Positions 6,979-51,016 of a stretch of DNA of 64,000 nt are shown here, piece by piece. The stretch's first letter is position 1, and the number at the start of each line of letters is the position of its first letter. Origin of the DNA: Holophagales bacterium (GTDB taxonomy: Bacteria; Acidobacteriota; Thermoanaerobaculia; Multivoradales; Multivoraceae). The notes under the pieces were generated by a model. It did no database searches and was not told where the DNA came from. It was given only the letters and a program-made list of their open reading frames with translations. The position numbers and the translations under genes are program-made. The stretch covers positions 1 through 64,000 of the forward strand of contig VXVC01000004.1 in assembly GCA_009836625.1 (NCBI GenBank), given 5' to 3'.

Positions 6979-9900
6979 ATGAAGCGACTGGTGGTCGTCA
7001 CCGCACTGGTGGTCGCGCCCCTGGCGTCAGCTCCAGCGGCGCAGGCGCAGCAGCTTCTGACTCTGGTGCGGGGCGTCGGAGAAGCGGCATCCGTGGGCGA
7101 CCAGGGCCCTTCGATCGGGCCGGTCCCGACAGCCGTGCAGGTGGACCTGGCCTTGCTGCGCGCCGCGCCGTTGCGGTTGGAAGTGCCGACGCCCGACGGT
7201 AGCGTCCTGTCGGCGGAACGGAGCGTGTTCGAGGACCGTGGCGGCGGCGACCTGATGTGGTCCGGCGGCCAGCCCGGCGCGGGATACGACACGGTGGTGC
7301 TGACGGTGGAGGGCGGCCGGCTGGTTGGCCGGTTCGGGGCAGCGGGGGGTGGTGTGTACCAGATCCACGCGGAGCGGGACGGCCGTGGCGGCATGGCGCC
7401 GATCGTCGGGGCGGAGGTGGAGGCGTGGTGCGGAGTGGAGGCGGATACGGAAGACAGCCACGACGTTCATGCCCATGGCCTGGCAGAGGTCCATGCAGCG
7501 GATCCACCCGAGCCCGTGAGCAACCCGCAGAGCCACGACAGGCTGGACATCCTGGTGCTGTACACGGCGACAGCCGCCGAGAATTGGGCTGACCGCGGTG
7601 GCGCTCTGGCGGCGATTCGCCACGCCGGCGACTACCTGAAGATGGTGTTTCGGAACAACGATCTCCCGGTCGAGCCGCACATCGTGCATGTCGCGCAGGC
7701 GTCGACCGCTTTGGATCGGGCGGGGAGAGTCCTGGACCGGCACGACCAATGGAGGAACTACAATCCCTTGCACAAGTGGATGTTCCGGGACGGAGATCTG
7801 CTACGCCTTCGGCACGAGCATCGGGCCGACTTAGTGCACGTCTTCACGGGCGAACCTCGACACCTTCTCCGGGGCGCCTGCGGCAGCCACCATCAACTCA
7901 GGAAGGGGGAAACGGCCCGTGACTTCTTCACCCTCGCCCGGGGCTGGACCACGAACTACCCCGGGCCCTGCCCCGACTACGCCGTGACCTTCGCGCATGA
8001 GATCGGCCACGGTCTGGGCGCCCACCACGATCGGGCAAACCTCGTTGGGTTCGCATCAAACACGGCGCTCAGGAAGGCACTGGAGTCTCTGTTCAGGCCG
8101 GACTCTTTCGGCTACCCGAACTTCGACGTCATGCCGAGCCTCGGGACGGCGATGAGCTACCCGGGACAGACCGAGCCGTTCTTCTCGACTCCCCGAATCC
8201 GACCCTGGGGCGCGGCGGTTGGCATCACCGACGAGGCGGACAACGAGCGGACGCTACGCGAGACGGTTCACATCGGGGCGCGTTACAGCGACTACCTGCG
8301 GTCGCTGGATGGCGTTCCGGCGGCGCCGAGCGGTCTTCAGGTTCGGTTCGGCGCCGGCGCCGCGAGCCTTTCCTGGCAGGACAACGCTCCGGAAGCAGAT
8401 GGCTATGAGGTTGCGTACCTGTGGGAATCCGAGTACGTGTTGGAACTCCAAGACCGCGAACTCAGCGGGCAGCGGATTCTCGCTGTCGAAGGCCGCACCG
8501 GGGCAACCCTGCCTCTCGAGTACACGAAACCGGGCTCCCTCTACAGGTTCGAGGTCCGGGCGATCAAGGGCGAAGTCCGGTCTCTGCGCAGCAGCGAGGT
8601 CTGGCTGGTCATCCCGGGCGAGCCGATCGCGGCGCCGTCGGACGTCACCGTGGCGGTCGCCTCCGGGCTCCATGCGGTCGACGTTCGCTGGACCGACAAC
8701 TCGGACAACGAATCGGCGTTCGAAGTGCAACTCCTGAAGGACGGCGAGCCGATCCAGCGGCATTCGTACTATCGACCGGACGTCGAGAGTGGGCACTTCA
8801 GTTCTGATGAAGTACAAGCTCAAGCTGGCGCCGAGTACGCGGTGCGGGTGTTCGCCTACAACTCGTCGGGCTACTCCGCGAGCAGCGAAGAGGTGACTTT
8901 CCGGTGGCAGCACCCGCTCGCTCCGGGGCCGGTCGCCGATGTTGCGGCGACGGCCATCGGACCGACGACGGTGCGTGTCACGTGGACGCCCGACCCCCAG
9001 GTTGAGCGCTATCGCGCCATAGCGGTGCTTCGAGGTTGGGATCACTCACGGCGCTGGTATCCACCACGCGACGGTCCCGCCAGTGCCGCATGGGTCGACT
9101 TCGAGGGGCTGCCCCGCGGCGGCCGCTACAAGTTCTCTGTGGAACCTTGGGGTGGTCTGGGCTCCGATACGTTCCTCACTCTGGGCGAGCGCGGCCCGGG
9201 CCCGGAGGCGCCTTCGGACCTCTCCTGGGCGAGGGAAGAAGGGAGCGCGGTCCTGAGTTGGAAGGACAACTCGAGCGACGAACTGGGCTTCGAAGTCCAG
9301 TCCGCCCCAATCGGAACCGAATTCTGGGACAGGAAGGTCACAGTCCCTCGGGACACGGAATCGGTCGACTACTCTCTCTTGCACGGACACGCCTACCGGG
9401 TCTTTGCCTACAACGATCGCGGATTCTCCTTGAGCAGCCCTCGCGTGGCCGAACCGCTGACTATTCTGAGCCTGACGGCTGCTTCCGGCGCTACGGAGGT
9501 CACCCTGGCTTGGCAAGTGGAGTTCGCCGAGACGGTGACAGGGATGCAGATGCGCTGGAAGGCTGTGGCGGATCTTCCGTTCGACGACGTGGTTGACGTC
9601 TGGACGGATCTGCCGGCTTCGGCTCGGGAGTACACAGTGACGGGTCTAAGGAACGGTACGGAGTATGCGTTCGCCGTGCGCGCCGCGGCGGCATGGGCCA
9701 CGGGTTTTGAGTCGATCGTCTGGGCGACGCCGCGCGATCCGCCCGCGCCGCCGCGGGCGCGCCTCGAGGCGTCCTTCACCGTTAGCGCGGACTGCTCCGA
9801 CAATCCCTGCCGTGTACACACCGGAGAGAAGATCAGGTTCACGGATACGAGCACCGGCGACGTGATGGAGAGGCACTGGAGCTTCGGCGACAGCACGACG

Positions 9901-47820: not shown

Positions 47821-48927
47821 ATGAAGCGCACCCTGACCTTGCTGTCGGCAGCCGCCGTCCTCCTCCTCGTCCTTGCCCCGGCCCTTGCGGCCCAGGACGA
47901 CGGGATTCCGCGAACGGCGAGCGGCCGGCCCGATCTGAACGGAACCTACGACGCCGCTACTCTGACGCCGCTCGAGCGGCCGGTGCATCTCGGCGAGCGG
48001 GCGTACCTGACGCCCGAGGAAGCCGCGGAGATCGCCGAGGAAGAGCGGCTGATCCAGGAAGGCGCCGTTGCCCGATCGGACGCGAATCGCGAAGCGCCGC
48101 CCGAAGGCGGCGCCAAGGTGGTCGGCCTGGAACACACCGCCGGCGGCGGCAACGAGTTCGGCGCCGGCAACGTCGGCGGTTACAACCTGTTCTGGATCGA
48201 CCGGGGAACCGACACCTACCTGGTCGACGGGCAGATCCCGACCTCGATCATCATCGATCCGCCGAACGGTCGGATGCCTCCCATGACGGAGGCGGCACAG
48301 GCGCAGTTGAGGGCGGCTCTCGCCGGCATCATTCGCGCCAATGACGGCACCGCCTGGTGGGTAGAGCACGACGGCCCCGGCCCCTACGACGACCCCGAGT
48401 CGCTGCCAACGAGCGAGCGCTGCCTCGCCGGTTTCACCGGCGCCGCGCCGACCTTCCCGAGCCTGTACAACAACTACAAGCGGATCGCGCAGACCGAGAC
48501 GCACGTCGTCATCCTGCTCGAGATGATTCACGACGCCCGCATCGTCCGCCTCAACTCCGAGCACCCGGGGCCCGAGGTCACCAAGTGGCTCGGCGACTCG
48601 ATCGGCTGGTGGGAAGGCGACACCCTGGTCGTCGACACGACGAACTTCCGTGTCGGCGGACGCGGCTTCCGCGGCGGCTCCGAGAACACCCACGTCGTCG
48701 AGCGCTTCTCCGTGCAGCACGATGGCAACGTGATCTACAACTTCACCGTCGAGGACGACACGGTCTGGGAAGCGCCGTGGACCGGTGAGTATCTTTGGAA
48801 GGCCGCCGATGGCCTCGTCTACGAGTACGCCTGCCACGAAGGCAACTACTCGATGGGCGGCACCCTCCGCGGCGCCCGCCTCCTCGAGTCGGAGGCCCTG
48901 AGCGGAGCCAGCACCGGCGCCGAGTAG
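47821..48927 (+). CDS. Exported protein of an uncharacterised family common in Acidobacteriota
   Basis: A 368-residue exported protein (signal peptide MKRTLTLLSAAAVLLLVLAPALA). It ends with a well-known but unnamed signature: DARIVRLNSEH, KWLGDSIGWWEGDTLVVDTTNF, NTHVVERFSV and YACHEGNYSMGG. This type is often found in large numbers in Acidobacteriota and some Proteobacteria; no activity is established. GGAGG lies 8 bases before the ATG. A TACACT hexamer at about 47774-47779 is a possible -10. It is followed by the longest non-coding stretch of the window. Confidence 0.72.
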   Translation: MKRTLTLLSAAAVLLLVLAPALAAQDDGIPRTASGRPDLNGTYDAATLTPLERPVHLGERAYLTPEEAAEIAEEERLIQEGAVARSDANREAPPEGGAKVVGLEHTAGGGNEFGAGNVGGYNLFWIDRGTDTYLVDGQIPTSIIIDPPNGRMPPMTEAAQAQLRAALAGIIRANDGTAWWVEHDGPGPYDDPESLPTSERCLAGFTGAAPTFPSLYNNYKRIAQTETHVVILLEMIHDARIVRLNSEHPGPEVTKWLGDSIGWWEGDTLVVDTTNFRVGGRGFRGGSENTHVVERFSVQHDGNVIYNFTVEDDTVWEAPWTGEYLWKAADGLVYEYACHEGNYSMGGTLRGARLLESEALSGASTGAE

Positions 48928-49332
48928 ACCGGCGACATCGTCGGTTTCACCCGCCCGCCCAGGGTCCGGGGGGAGGGGTCCCAGCGGTCGTTCGCACTTT
49001 CTCGGAACAGGGGGAGCTTGCGCTCACTTCACTCCGCTCGCTTCGGTAGGTCGTCGGTTCGTGGGCTGATGTTCGAAGTCGCTCGCTCCGAGCCCGCTGG
49101 GACCCCTCCCCCCGGACCATGAGCGGGCTAGACGGCGTCGGCACTAGCACGGCCTTTTGATCGGAGTTGCGTCCTGTCTCTGGGTGCGCGGGTCTTCTGA
49201 CCCGCACGCTGCGGCTACGCCGCGTCGATTTCGGCATAGGGTCCGCCGGGACCGCTTGTCGGTGTGCCGACCTGACATCCGAAGGTCCGGGCGCATCGCG
49301 GAGGGATCGCGACGAAGAGAGGGAGTGCGGAA
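48928..49332. other. Longest gene-free stretch: inverted-repeat element plus hairpins
   Basis: 405 bases with no open reading frame I can support. It holds a long inverted repeat (48953-49128, listed separately) and two close hairpins: 49184-49207 (GTGC-GC bulge-GGGTC, loop TTCT, then GACCCGCAC) and 49211-49223 (GCGGC-TAC-GCCGC). Neither is followed by a T-run. The last 40 bases carry GAGGGAG for the next gene. No tRNA or promoter of good quality was seen. Confidence 0.7.
48953..49128. repeat. Long inverted repeat, 24 + 6 bp arms
   Basis: The left arm GGTCCGGGGGGAGGGGTCCCAGCG has its perfect reverse complement as the right arm at 49095-49118 (left 48963-48986). Outside this, after a symmetric 4-base gap (CCAG and ATGA), GCCCGC (48953) pairs with GCGGGC (49123-49128). 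The 108-base interior has no open frame and contains repeats of the type TCGCTC/GCTCGC. It could be a folded RNA, a REP-like or MITE-like non-autonomous element, or a strong bidirectional terminator structure. No other copy was found in the window. Confidence 0.7.
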
Positions 49333-50259
49333 ATGAAGGCGAGGACGAAGTCCACACTGAAGAAGTTCGCCGAAGAACAGAAGACCCGGACGTGTTCCAG
49401 ACTTGCCGCCGAGAAGTGCGGCAAGGACGGTCCTGTGGGTACTGCTTGTTGTTCAAGGATCAAGGCAGACCCCAGGGTCGTCGGAGGCTTCAGGGTTCTG
49501 GGCGCGCTCGACGATTTCGGCCGGGAGCGGCTTTCGAAGCACTACTTCATGCGGGACTTCCTGTACTCGGAGATCTCCCAGGTTCACGGCATTCCGAACG
49601 TGCCGGAGGACGCTGACCTGGCCGTGAAGGCGGGGAAGGCGCTTTGCCGGAACCTCCTGGAGCCGCTACGGCACGTCTTCGGCCACGTCACGATCCGGTC
49701 GGCATTCCGCAGCGCCAGCGTGAACGGCTTCTGTAACTGTCACAACATGAACTGCTCCTCCAACAAGGCGAGCTACGCGAACCACATCTGGGACCACAGG
49801 GACGGCGACGGGTTCATGGGCGCGACGGCCTGCATCGTCATCCCCTGGTTCGCCGACTGGATGAACGAGAAGCAGGGTCGGGACTGGCGCGTCCTGGCGT
49901 GGTTCATCCACAACCATCTGCCGTACTCGGAGATGGTGTTCTTCATCGAGCACGCGGCGGTCAATCTCACCTGGCGCGGAGACCCCGATGATGCGGCGCA
50001 GGATGGCGATGTTCTTGAGTTCGACGGCAGTCGCGGCAGCATCTCATGGCGCTCGGAGCCCAGGCGGTATGTCAAGAGCTTCCAGGAGCCGAAGGGGCTG
50101 TTGATCAAGAATGGAGAATTGAAGGGTCACGCTCCGAACGACCACTACGACGACTGCCTCCGTGATCTCTGTAGCGACCGACCTGCCCTCTCCGACTACC
50201 TGAAAGTGCTACAGGCAGCCAAGACTGAGGAGGATGAGCGCTTCGGAAGACTGGTCTAA
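49333..50259 (+). CDS. M15-like peptidase domain protein (D-Ala-D-Ala carboxypeptidase-like), putative
   Basis: A 308-residue cytosolic-looking protein (no signal peptide). A segment after residue 75 (HYFMRDFLYSEIS, then VFGHVTIRSAFRSASVNGF) is followed by YANHIWDHRDGDG and WFIHNHLPYSEM. Together these recall the M15 ligand order: R-S, H-x(n)-D, then H-x-H. The N-terminal 70 residues are Cys/Lys-rich and specific to this protein. M15 enzymes cut D-alanyl bonds in cell wall; here the assignment rests on motifs alone. GAGGGAG lies 8 bases before the ATG. It sits just after the inverted-repeat element. Confidence 0.6.
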   Translation: MKARTKSTLKKFAEEQKTRTCSRLAAEKCGKDGPVGTACCSRIKADPRVVGGFRVLGALDDFGRERLSKHYFMRDFLYSEISQVHGIPNVPEDADLAVKAGKALCRNLLEPLRHVFGHVTIRSAFRSASVNGFCNCHNMNCSSNKASYANHIWDHRDGDGFMGATACIVIPWFADWMNEKQGRDWRVLAWFIHNHLPYSEMVFFIEHAAVNLTWRGDPDDAAQDGDVLEFDGSRGSISWRSEPRRYVKSFQEPKGLLIKNGELKGHAPNDHYDDCLRDLCSDRPALSDYLKVLQAAKTEEDERFGRLV

Positions 50260-50341
50260 GGGGGGCGGGCGGAGGGTTGAAGGCGATCCCAAGCCCTTGG
50301 CGCTGGCGGCTGGCGGACACGGACGCACGAAGCTCCGCGTC

Positions 50342-50758
50342 CTACCGGATGAGAAGGGCCGAGGCCGTGAGTTGAGCCGCCGTCAAGGCGTCGGCGAGCT
50401 TCTCGTCAGCGGTCGCCAGGGGGCAGTCGAGCTGTTGTGCCAGCGCTGCGTAGACGGCGTCGTAGACCGTCAGGTCCAGAGCGAAGGCGAGGCTCCGTGC
50501 CGGACGTGTGAGTTCAGCCAACGGCGTGAGTACGAGAGGCACGGCGGCTAGAGCCTGGAAAGCTGTGTCGGCCTCGGATCGTGTCAGAACGCCTCGGCGG
50601 GCTTTCGCCCAAAGTACGTTCGCCACCTCCAGCAGCATGAAGTCAGGGGCGTGCAGAACGTCCTTGTCCAGGAGTTCCCTCGCGGCGGCGCTACCTTCCT
50701 CTTCGAGAACCCACTTCAGGGCGGCACTGGCGTCAACGACGACGCGTTGGAGCGGCAA
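50342..50758 (-). CDS. vapC: VapC-type PIN domain toxin
   Basis: A 138-residue PIN domain with D9 (VVVDASAALKW), E44 (MLLEVANVLW), D100 (TVYDAVYAAL) and D118 (ATADEKLA), a complete site. The start is a TTG at 50758, chosen because it begins the domain and lies 6 bases after the antitoxin stop. It probably cleaves RNA when released. It is paired with a ribbon-helix-helix antitoxin. Confidence 0.88.
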   Translation of the reverse strand: MPLQRVVVDASAALKWVLEEEGSAAARELLDKDVLHAPDFMLLEVANVLWAKARRGVLTRSEADTAFQALAAVPLVLTPLAELTRPARSLAFALDLTVYDAVYAALAQQLDCPLATADEKLADALTAAQLTASALLIR

Positions 50759-50764
50759 GACGAG

Positions 50765-51016
50765 TCAGCCGGAGATGTCGTGGGCTCTTCCGTCCCGCAG
50801 TTTCCGAACCAGTTGCTCGACGGGTTCATCGTCGTCGTGTGCTATCGCTGCACGGACGGCGTCGAGGCGAGCCCGTGCCGCTTCGCGGTCGACCCCGACG
50901 GCCATCGCGAGTGAGCGGCGAGCTTCTTCCTCGGTTGATCGGCCGGCAGCCGCTGCTCTGCGTCGCAGTGCCTGCACGACCGCTTCGTCGACGTTACGGA
51001 TAGTAAGCTGGCCCAT
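50765..51016 (-). CDS. FitA/RHH-type antitoxin
   Basis: An 83-residue protein. The opening MGQLTIRNVDEAVVQALRRRAAAAGRS with the following TEEEARRSL is the ribbon-helix-helix layout of FitA-like antitoxins that pair with PIN toxins. The C-terminal part (DDDEPVEQLVRKLRDGRAHD) probably binds the toxin. It is first in its operon, with the toxin 6 bases downstream. It is divergent from the hydrolase at 51125 over 108 bases. Confidence 0.85.
   Translation of the reverse strand: MGQLTIRNVDEAVVQALRRRAAAAGRSTEEEARRSLAMAVGVDREAARARLDAVRAAIAHDDDEPVEQLVRKLRDGRAHDISG

Follow-up and report, generated by a model that had tools for sequence, protein, structure and literature searches.

Bacterial genomes commonly harbour small dispersed palindromes, and whether these are selfish or useful usually remains open. 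The BIME elements of enterobacteria are found at the 3' ends of transcription units and are enriched between convergent genes. Such a placement is also described for REPs (PMC3733652). GTAG REPs and REPINs are palindromes of 20-40 bp with a terminal GTAG and an association with RAYT (Y1) transposases (PMC3733652, PMC3116915), and the CGTC-tagged REPs, likewise 20-40 bp long, have stems of 8-9 bp, loops of mostly 4-5 nt and a terminal unpaired CGTC (Di Nocera et al., 2013, PMC3733652). For ERIC (IRU, RU-1) and YPAL (RU-2), miniature elements of enterobacteria, target-site duplications have been reported, and ERIC additionally has TA ends (PMC2229807).

Here, we follow up an inverted repeat in a 64,000-nucleotide stretch of an Acidobacteriota genome, in the following called the window. 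The positions of its copies are conserved across species, their stems stay complementary despite sequence turnover and their interior boxes are under selection, which makes the question of selfishness or usefulness testable in this case.

Results

Structure and surroundings of the window element

The inverted repeat was confirmed with perfect arms of 25 bp (48963-48987 and 49094-49118), slightly longer than the 24 bp with 108 bases in between that an earlier note had read from the letters. The 6-bp outer arms reported there are present as described, at 48953-48958 and 49123-49128 beyond symmetric 4-base gaps, giving total arms of 35 nt each that are 94% complementary and enclose 106 nt. On either strand, none of 200 dinucleotide shuffles gave as good a predicted fold as the real sequence (z -6.8 and -8.3), and the arm core has no second occurrence within the window. 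The limits initially drawn at 48953-49128 were slightly too narrow, as the conserved unit extends from 48948 to 49139. The features are as follows:

47821..48927, + strand: upstream gene with a signal-peptide-like start and without a Pfam match; it also precedes the element in related species
48948..49139, + strand: entire repeat, about 193 bp (matches the covariance model over 1-193 with 170 bits; ends from conservation over 66 non-orthologous loci)
48948..48955, + strand: conserved 5' end CACCCGCC (consensus of 47 cluster representatives; orthologs differ at 1 of 88 sites)
48953..48987, + strand: left arm (perfect part 48963-48987, outer part 48953-48958)
48979..48998, + strand: box 1, consensus TCCCAGCGGaCGCTCGCGCT (column conservation; low ortholog divergence)
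48988..49093, + strand: interior loop with a constant length of about 106 nt, alone not more structured than shuffles
49020..49046, + strand: box 2, consensus GCGCTCGCTTCGGTCGGCTGCGCTCCGG, the window copy being the CACTCCGCTCGC variant (column conservation; low ortholog divergence)
49078..49104, + strand: box 3, consensus GTCGCTTGCCTCCAGCCCGCTGGGACC (column conservation; low ortholog divergence)
49094..49128, + strand: right arm (perfect part 49094-49118, outer part 49123-49128)
49125..49139, + strand: conserved 3' end, consensus GGCTGGAGGnCGTC followed by GG (conservation over non-orthologous loci; cluster-representative consensus)

The element starts 20 nt past the stop codon of the upstream gene and lies in a gene-free stretch of 405 bp (48928-49332), which by a rough gene caller is the third longest of the window and not the longest, as first noted. 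Its interior contains only mechanical open reading frames. The G-quadruplex suggested for the arm found no support: neither strand of the window copy contains a canonical four-tract G3 motif, which is present in only a minority of the copies. Just after the element, at 49178-49211, there is a copy of a short palindromic repeat (CTCTGGGTGCGCGGGTCTTCTGACCCGC and relatives). Further in the 3' direction follow a 308-aa protein without a Pfam match and a PIN/FitA-like toxin-antitoxin pair (50342-51016). G020 lacks the stretch 49333-51016 and has, directly after the upstream gene, a gene resembling the 51092 ORF of the window, which marks this as a variable site.

Copy number and distribution

With the 192-base region as query, the element's own genome (15 contigs, 4.3 Mb in total) yielded some twenty other places with about 65-76% identity, many of them full length. 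Using a covariance model built from an alignment of 18 copies, we found 29 full-length copies in this genome, nearly all of 187-199 bp, one of which spans an assembly gap. All 21 searched genomes of the genus (Candidatus Multivorans-type Acidobacteriota) carry the family, with 7 to about 60 matches per genome, some of the listed matches being the same palindrome on the opposite strand. A 24-base core pattern, compared with 84,980 species, matched 83 stretches, all of them in metagenome assemblies of Acidobacteriota that carry the label Candidatus Multivorans, Thermoanaerobaculia, Holophagales or Acidobacteria; NCBI taxonomy places Candidatus Multivorans in the Thermoanaerobaculia of the Acidobacteriota. 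We take the assemblies with the element to be those of sponge symbionts, and the element is a marker for these uncultured organisms. Because there are many copies and many genomes carry them, at the same locus in several species, the inverted repeat of the window is neither an assembly artefact nor a single copy, the two outcomes that the earlier note had named as arguing against it. Rfam 15 has no curated covariance model that matches the window region or the elements of other families described below.

Besides, two tandem head-to-tail arrangements were seen, at 127059-127520 of contig C4 of the own genome and at 7376-7980 of locus L158, the latter with copies about 203 bp apart and 6 nt between the conserved ends. 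Several copies (L039, L088, L123, L140, L173, L182, L216) carry an extra 65-70 bp or so in their interior, and the extra stretch of L216 lies inside the first variable segment and resembles a nested short repeat.

Anatomy and covariation across copies

The copies have sharp ends: conservation begins with CACCCGCC, preceded by a weak GG and G, and stops after GGCTGGAGGnCGTCGG. The ends are CACCC and CGTC(GG), with the CGTC end in most copies. The arm sequences vary among copies and stay complementary, with both sides changed in 29 of 35 stem pairs and compensatory changes in 31 of 50 modelled pairs. Pairing was found in 92.9% of the cells versus 42-49% after sliding the partners; the second covariation alignment was model-fitted, and shuffles and slides were run on this same alignment. 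The interior varies little in length (about 106 nt) and consists of three conserved boxes with two variable segments between them; folded alone, it is no better than shuffles on either strand.

A stem acting in a sense RNA should tolerate G-U wobble more often than A-C, and this expectation was reversed. Among isolated arm mismatches on the sense strand, A-C outnumbers G-U by 71 to 21 in 177 copies and by 28 to 7 if one copy per cluster is counted, and the arms of the other families point in the same direction (17 versus 9, not significant). The A-C excess would reflect either selection on the antisense strand or on the DNA, or asymmetric mutation, and no other finding weighs as heavily against a simple sense 3'-UTR RNA.

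Genomic position

Gene context was counted from the copy lists of the own genome (G000) and G018 with a rough codon-composition gene caller. In co-directional gaps, 39 copies are in sense and 11 in antisense orientation to the upstream gene, convergent gaps hold 32 copies versus 3 in divergent gaps, and the median distance past the stop codon is about 20 nt. A larger copy collection, partly chosen by the core 24-mer, agrees on position and orientation. The genes upstream of copies are ordinary ones, rplQ, nqrF, jag, ruvA and moaA among them; rplQ and nqrF are usually operon-terminal. A U-tract is lacking: TTTT near the 3' end is present in just 1 of 88 copies.

Evolution of individual copies

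At the window locus, the element is present in seven relatives (G018, G009, G017, G002, G004, G006 and G008) and absent in others; G010 has kept both ends and lost the palindrome, and the same is seen in G002 and G014 at another locus. Such losses with retained ends look like deletion of the palindrome rather than precise excision. Candidates for clean empty sites, the best of them G009 at the L046 locus, look like deletions with one or both ends left. About 21 of the 29 loci of the own genome are common to G018. The closest paralogs are 82.8% (G000) and 87.4% (G018) identical, which argues against a recent burst.

Between 11 orthologous pairs, the boxes diverge by 3.3%, the variable segments by 10.7% and the arms by 9.2%. 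Since the boxes diverge less than the variable segments (Fisher p=4e-8), single copies are under purifying selection in place. Several orthologous copies are far more diverged than their flanks, either over their entire length or in parts of the interior, with unchanged boundaries. In one copy of the own genome (L037, C3:829870-830062), the interior lies in the opposite orientation to that of the orthologous copies in G005 and G007 (L062, L083), with identical arms on either side; outside the interior, the element is identical to that of G005.

Mobility

From the dispersal alone, we infer past mobility of the family. A permutation test over 66 non-orthologous loci gave no diagonal clearly above shuffled pairs and hence no locus-specific target-site duplication, which the earlier note had proposed to look for. 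Direct repeats of GCGTCGG on either side, recognized by eye, vanish against permuted pairs and represent shared consensus. The Y1 transposase (RAYT, PF01797) was not found in the own genome or in G018, which has about 60 copies of the element; among the 12 congeners that have the transposase, most carry one copy of it. Beside six RAYT genes of relatives, the best match to the element reached only 10.7 bits. Mobilization by RAYT was rejected, as copy number does not track RAYT presence and a different repeat flanks the RAYT genes. The earlier assignment to a MITE/REP-type element or a large folded RNA is right in kind, as we see a multi-copy, non-coding, dispersed palindrome whose stem shows strong covariation among the copies, but a classical MITE or REP finds no support in these results.

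A second short palindromic repeat (CTCTGGGTGCGCGGGTCTTCTGACCCGC and related sequences, among them GTCGGTGCGCCGGCCTTCTGGCCGGC) is found repeatedly in the genus and forms inverted pairs around the Y1 (RAYT) genes of relatives in a REPtron-like manner (L262, L264, L265). A composite transposon was also considered and rejected: the genes enclosed by inverted pairs of copies are ordinary ones (ApbE-like, TPR and PTPS-like, assigned by reading translations). Among the loci read, no autonomous transposase-encoding element with shared ends was seen, the variable arms providing no usable query.

Related families in the order

Other families of the order gave weak matches, which turned out to be palindromes present in many copies and alike in size and layout, each with a stem of about 30-35 bp that ends with CCCAGGGG/CCCCTGGG or a similar sequence and leads into a P2 hairpin of genus-specific sequence. 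In a cross-family alignment, both sides changed in 8 of 9 P2 pairs and 74.9% of the P2 cells are paired; for the end of the long stem (P1) and P2 together, 82.3% of the cells are paired versus 36-56% after sliding. The cross-family model has matches in 9 of 70 genera, confined to three families. It also found 11 matches in a genus held out from model building (g26, G083), and those of the matches that were read have the same long stem and, in several predicted folds, P2. A preference for positions after stop codons is not clear in the other families. Related lineage-specific families with this layout are thus present in two further families of the order, so that the architecture recurs, each time with its own sequence.

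Discussion

The family is dispersed, has fixed ends and a fixed length, a covarying stem, a preferred position and orientation after stop codons, and an interior under purifying selection, and we infer from this a role at the 3' ends of genes. In the reading that we prefer, with confidence that is about evenly balanced, the family is an old one, made up of dispersed palindromic repeats that are non-autonomous, and has been kept as a folded 3' gene-end element. As a functional analogue of ERIC, YPAL and REP/BIME, it would have spread through the genomes of the genus, with copies now retained at many gene ends. Each copy would fold into a long near-perfect stem (P1) and a conserved interior cap with a short hairpin (P2), and would most likely act at the 3' end of a transcription unit, either in protection or processing of the transcript end or as a boundary mark between units. 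Against this reading speak the missing U-tract, the interior that alone does not fold above shuffles, the prevalence of A-C over G-U mismatches and the unclear after-stop bias in other families. Tentatively, one may go further and regard the elements as an undescribed multi-copy structured class of one Acidobacteriota order, in which selection keeps each copy as a 3'-end regulatory RNA; such a class would combine a covarying long stem and a conserved branched interior at dozens of gene ends, with genus-specific sequence and conserved architecture.

The dispersed copies with their sharp ends, the varying presence at the same locus between species and the tandem copies about 203 bp apart would also suit a purely selfish miniature mobile element with a putative transposase, for which the after-stop position is a tolerated or targeted insertion. 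We consider this rather unlikely, as locus-specific target-site duplications were not found, even the closest paralogs are quite distant, several absences are internal deletions keeping both ends instead of clean empty sites, the interior boxes are under purifying selection in situ, and copies in co-directional gaps are biased towards sense. The same sense bias, for which a supercoiling site has no obvious requirement, together with the covariation of P2 between families, makes it improbable that the element acts at the DNA level to manage supercoiling at transcription-unit ends, either as a cruciform or as a putative protein-binding site like those proposed for BIMEs (gyrase or a nucleoid protein). 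Such a function would nevertheless account for the strong enrichment in convergent over divergent gaps, for boxes conserved in sequence rather than structure, for mismatches that do not favour sense-strand wobble and for the copy with the inverted interior, as expected if the arms recombine or extrude. An intrinsic (Rho-independent) terminator would likewise be a long G+C-rich hairpin in sense orientation about 20 nt past stop codons, but with 87 of 88 copies devoid of TTTT near the 3' end, and with about 193 bp and a conserved 106-nt interior far exceeding the needs of a terminator, this is very unlikely. Long inverted repeats can form at contig joins, of which there is no sign here; the occurrence of the element at the same locus in other species, the many copies and a covariation far above controls refute a palindromic assembly artefact or a chance repeat.

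Compared with known systems, the element resembles ERIC and YPAL in being a non-coding, mainly intergenic and dispersed repeat of 100-200 bp whose transcripts are predicted to form long stem-loops (PMC2229807). In contrast to these, it has no detected target-site duplication, ends in CACCC and CGTC(GG), is G+C-rich and has arms that vary between copies; no shared ends or motifs were seen, the comparison being made by ends and motifs. With CGTC-tagged REPs it has in common the palindrome, CGTC at one end, a location mainly downstream of coding regions and no known dedicated transposase (PMC3733652), whereas its 35-bp arms, 106-nt interior and overall size of about 193 bp do not fit their dimensions, and the shared CGTC tetranucleotide may be a coincidence. 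GTAG REPs and REPINs are also inverted palindromic units dispersed between genes (PMC3733652, PMC3116915), but our element has no GTAG tag, no RAYT was found in its own genome, and the RAYT genes of relatives have no copy of it next to them. Of the features of a MITE, it shows terminal inverted repeats, a short non-coding unit and sharp ends, without a target-site duplication and with arm sequences that are not common to the copies. Like BIMEs, it sits at 3' gene ends and is enriched between convergent genes; BIMEs, however, are mosaics of short REPs, whereas here a single long stem encloses a conserved interior. Differing from ERIC, YPAL, REP and MITE in a defining feature tested for each, the element may by analogy work like ERIC, YPAL, REP and BIME.
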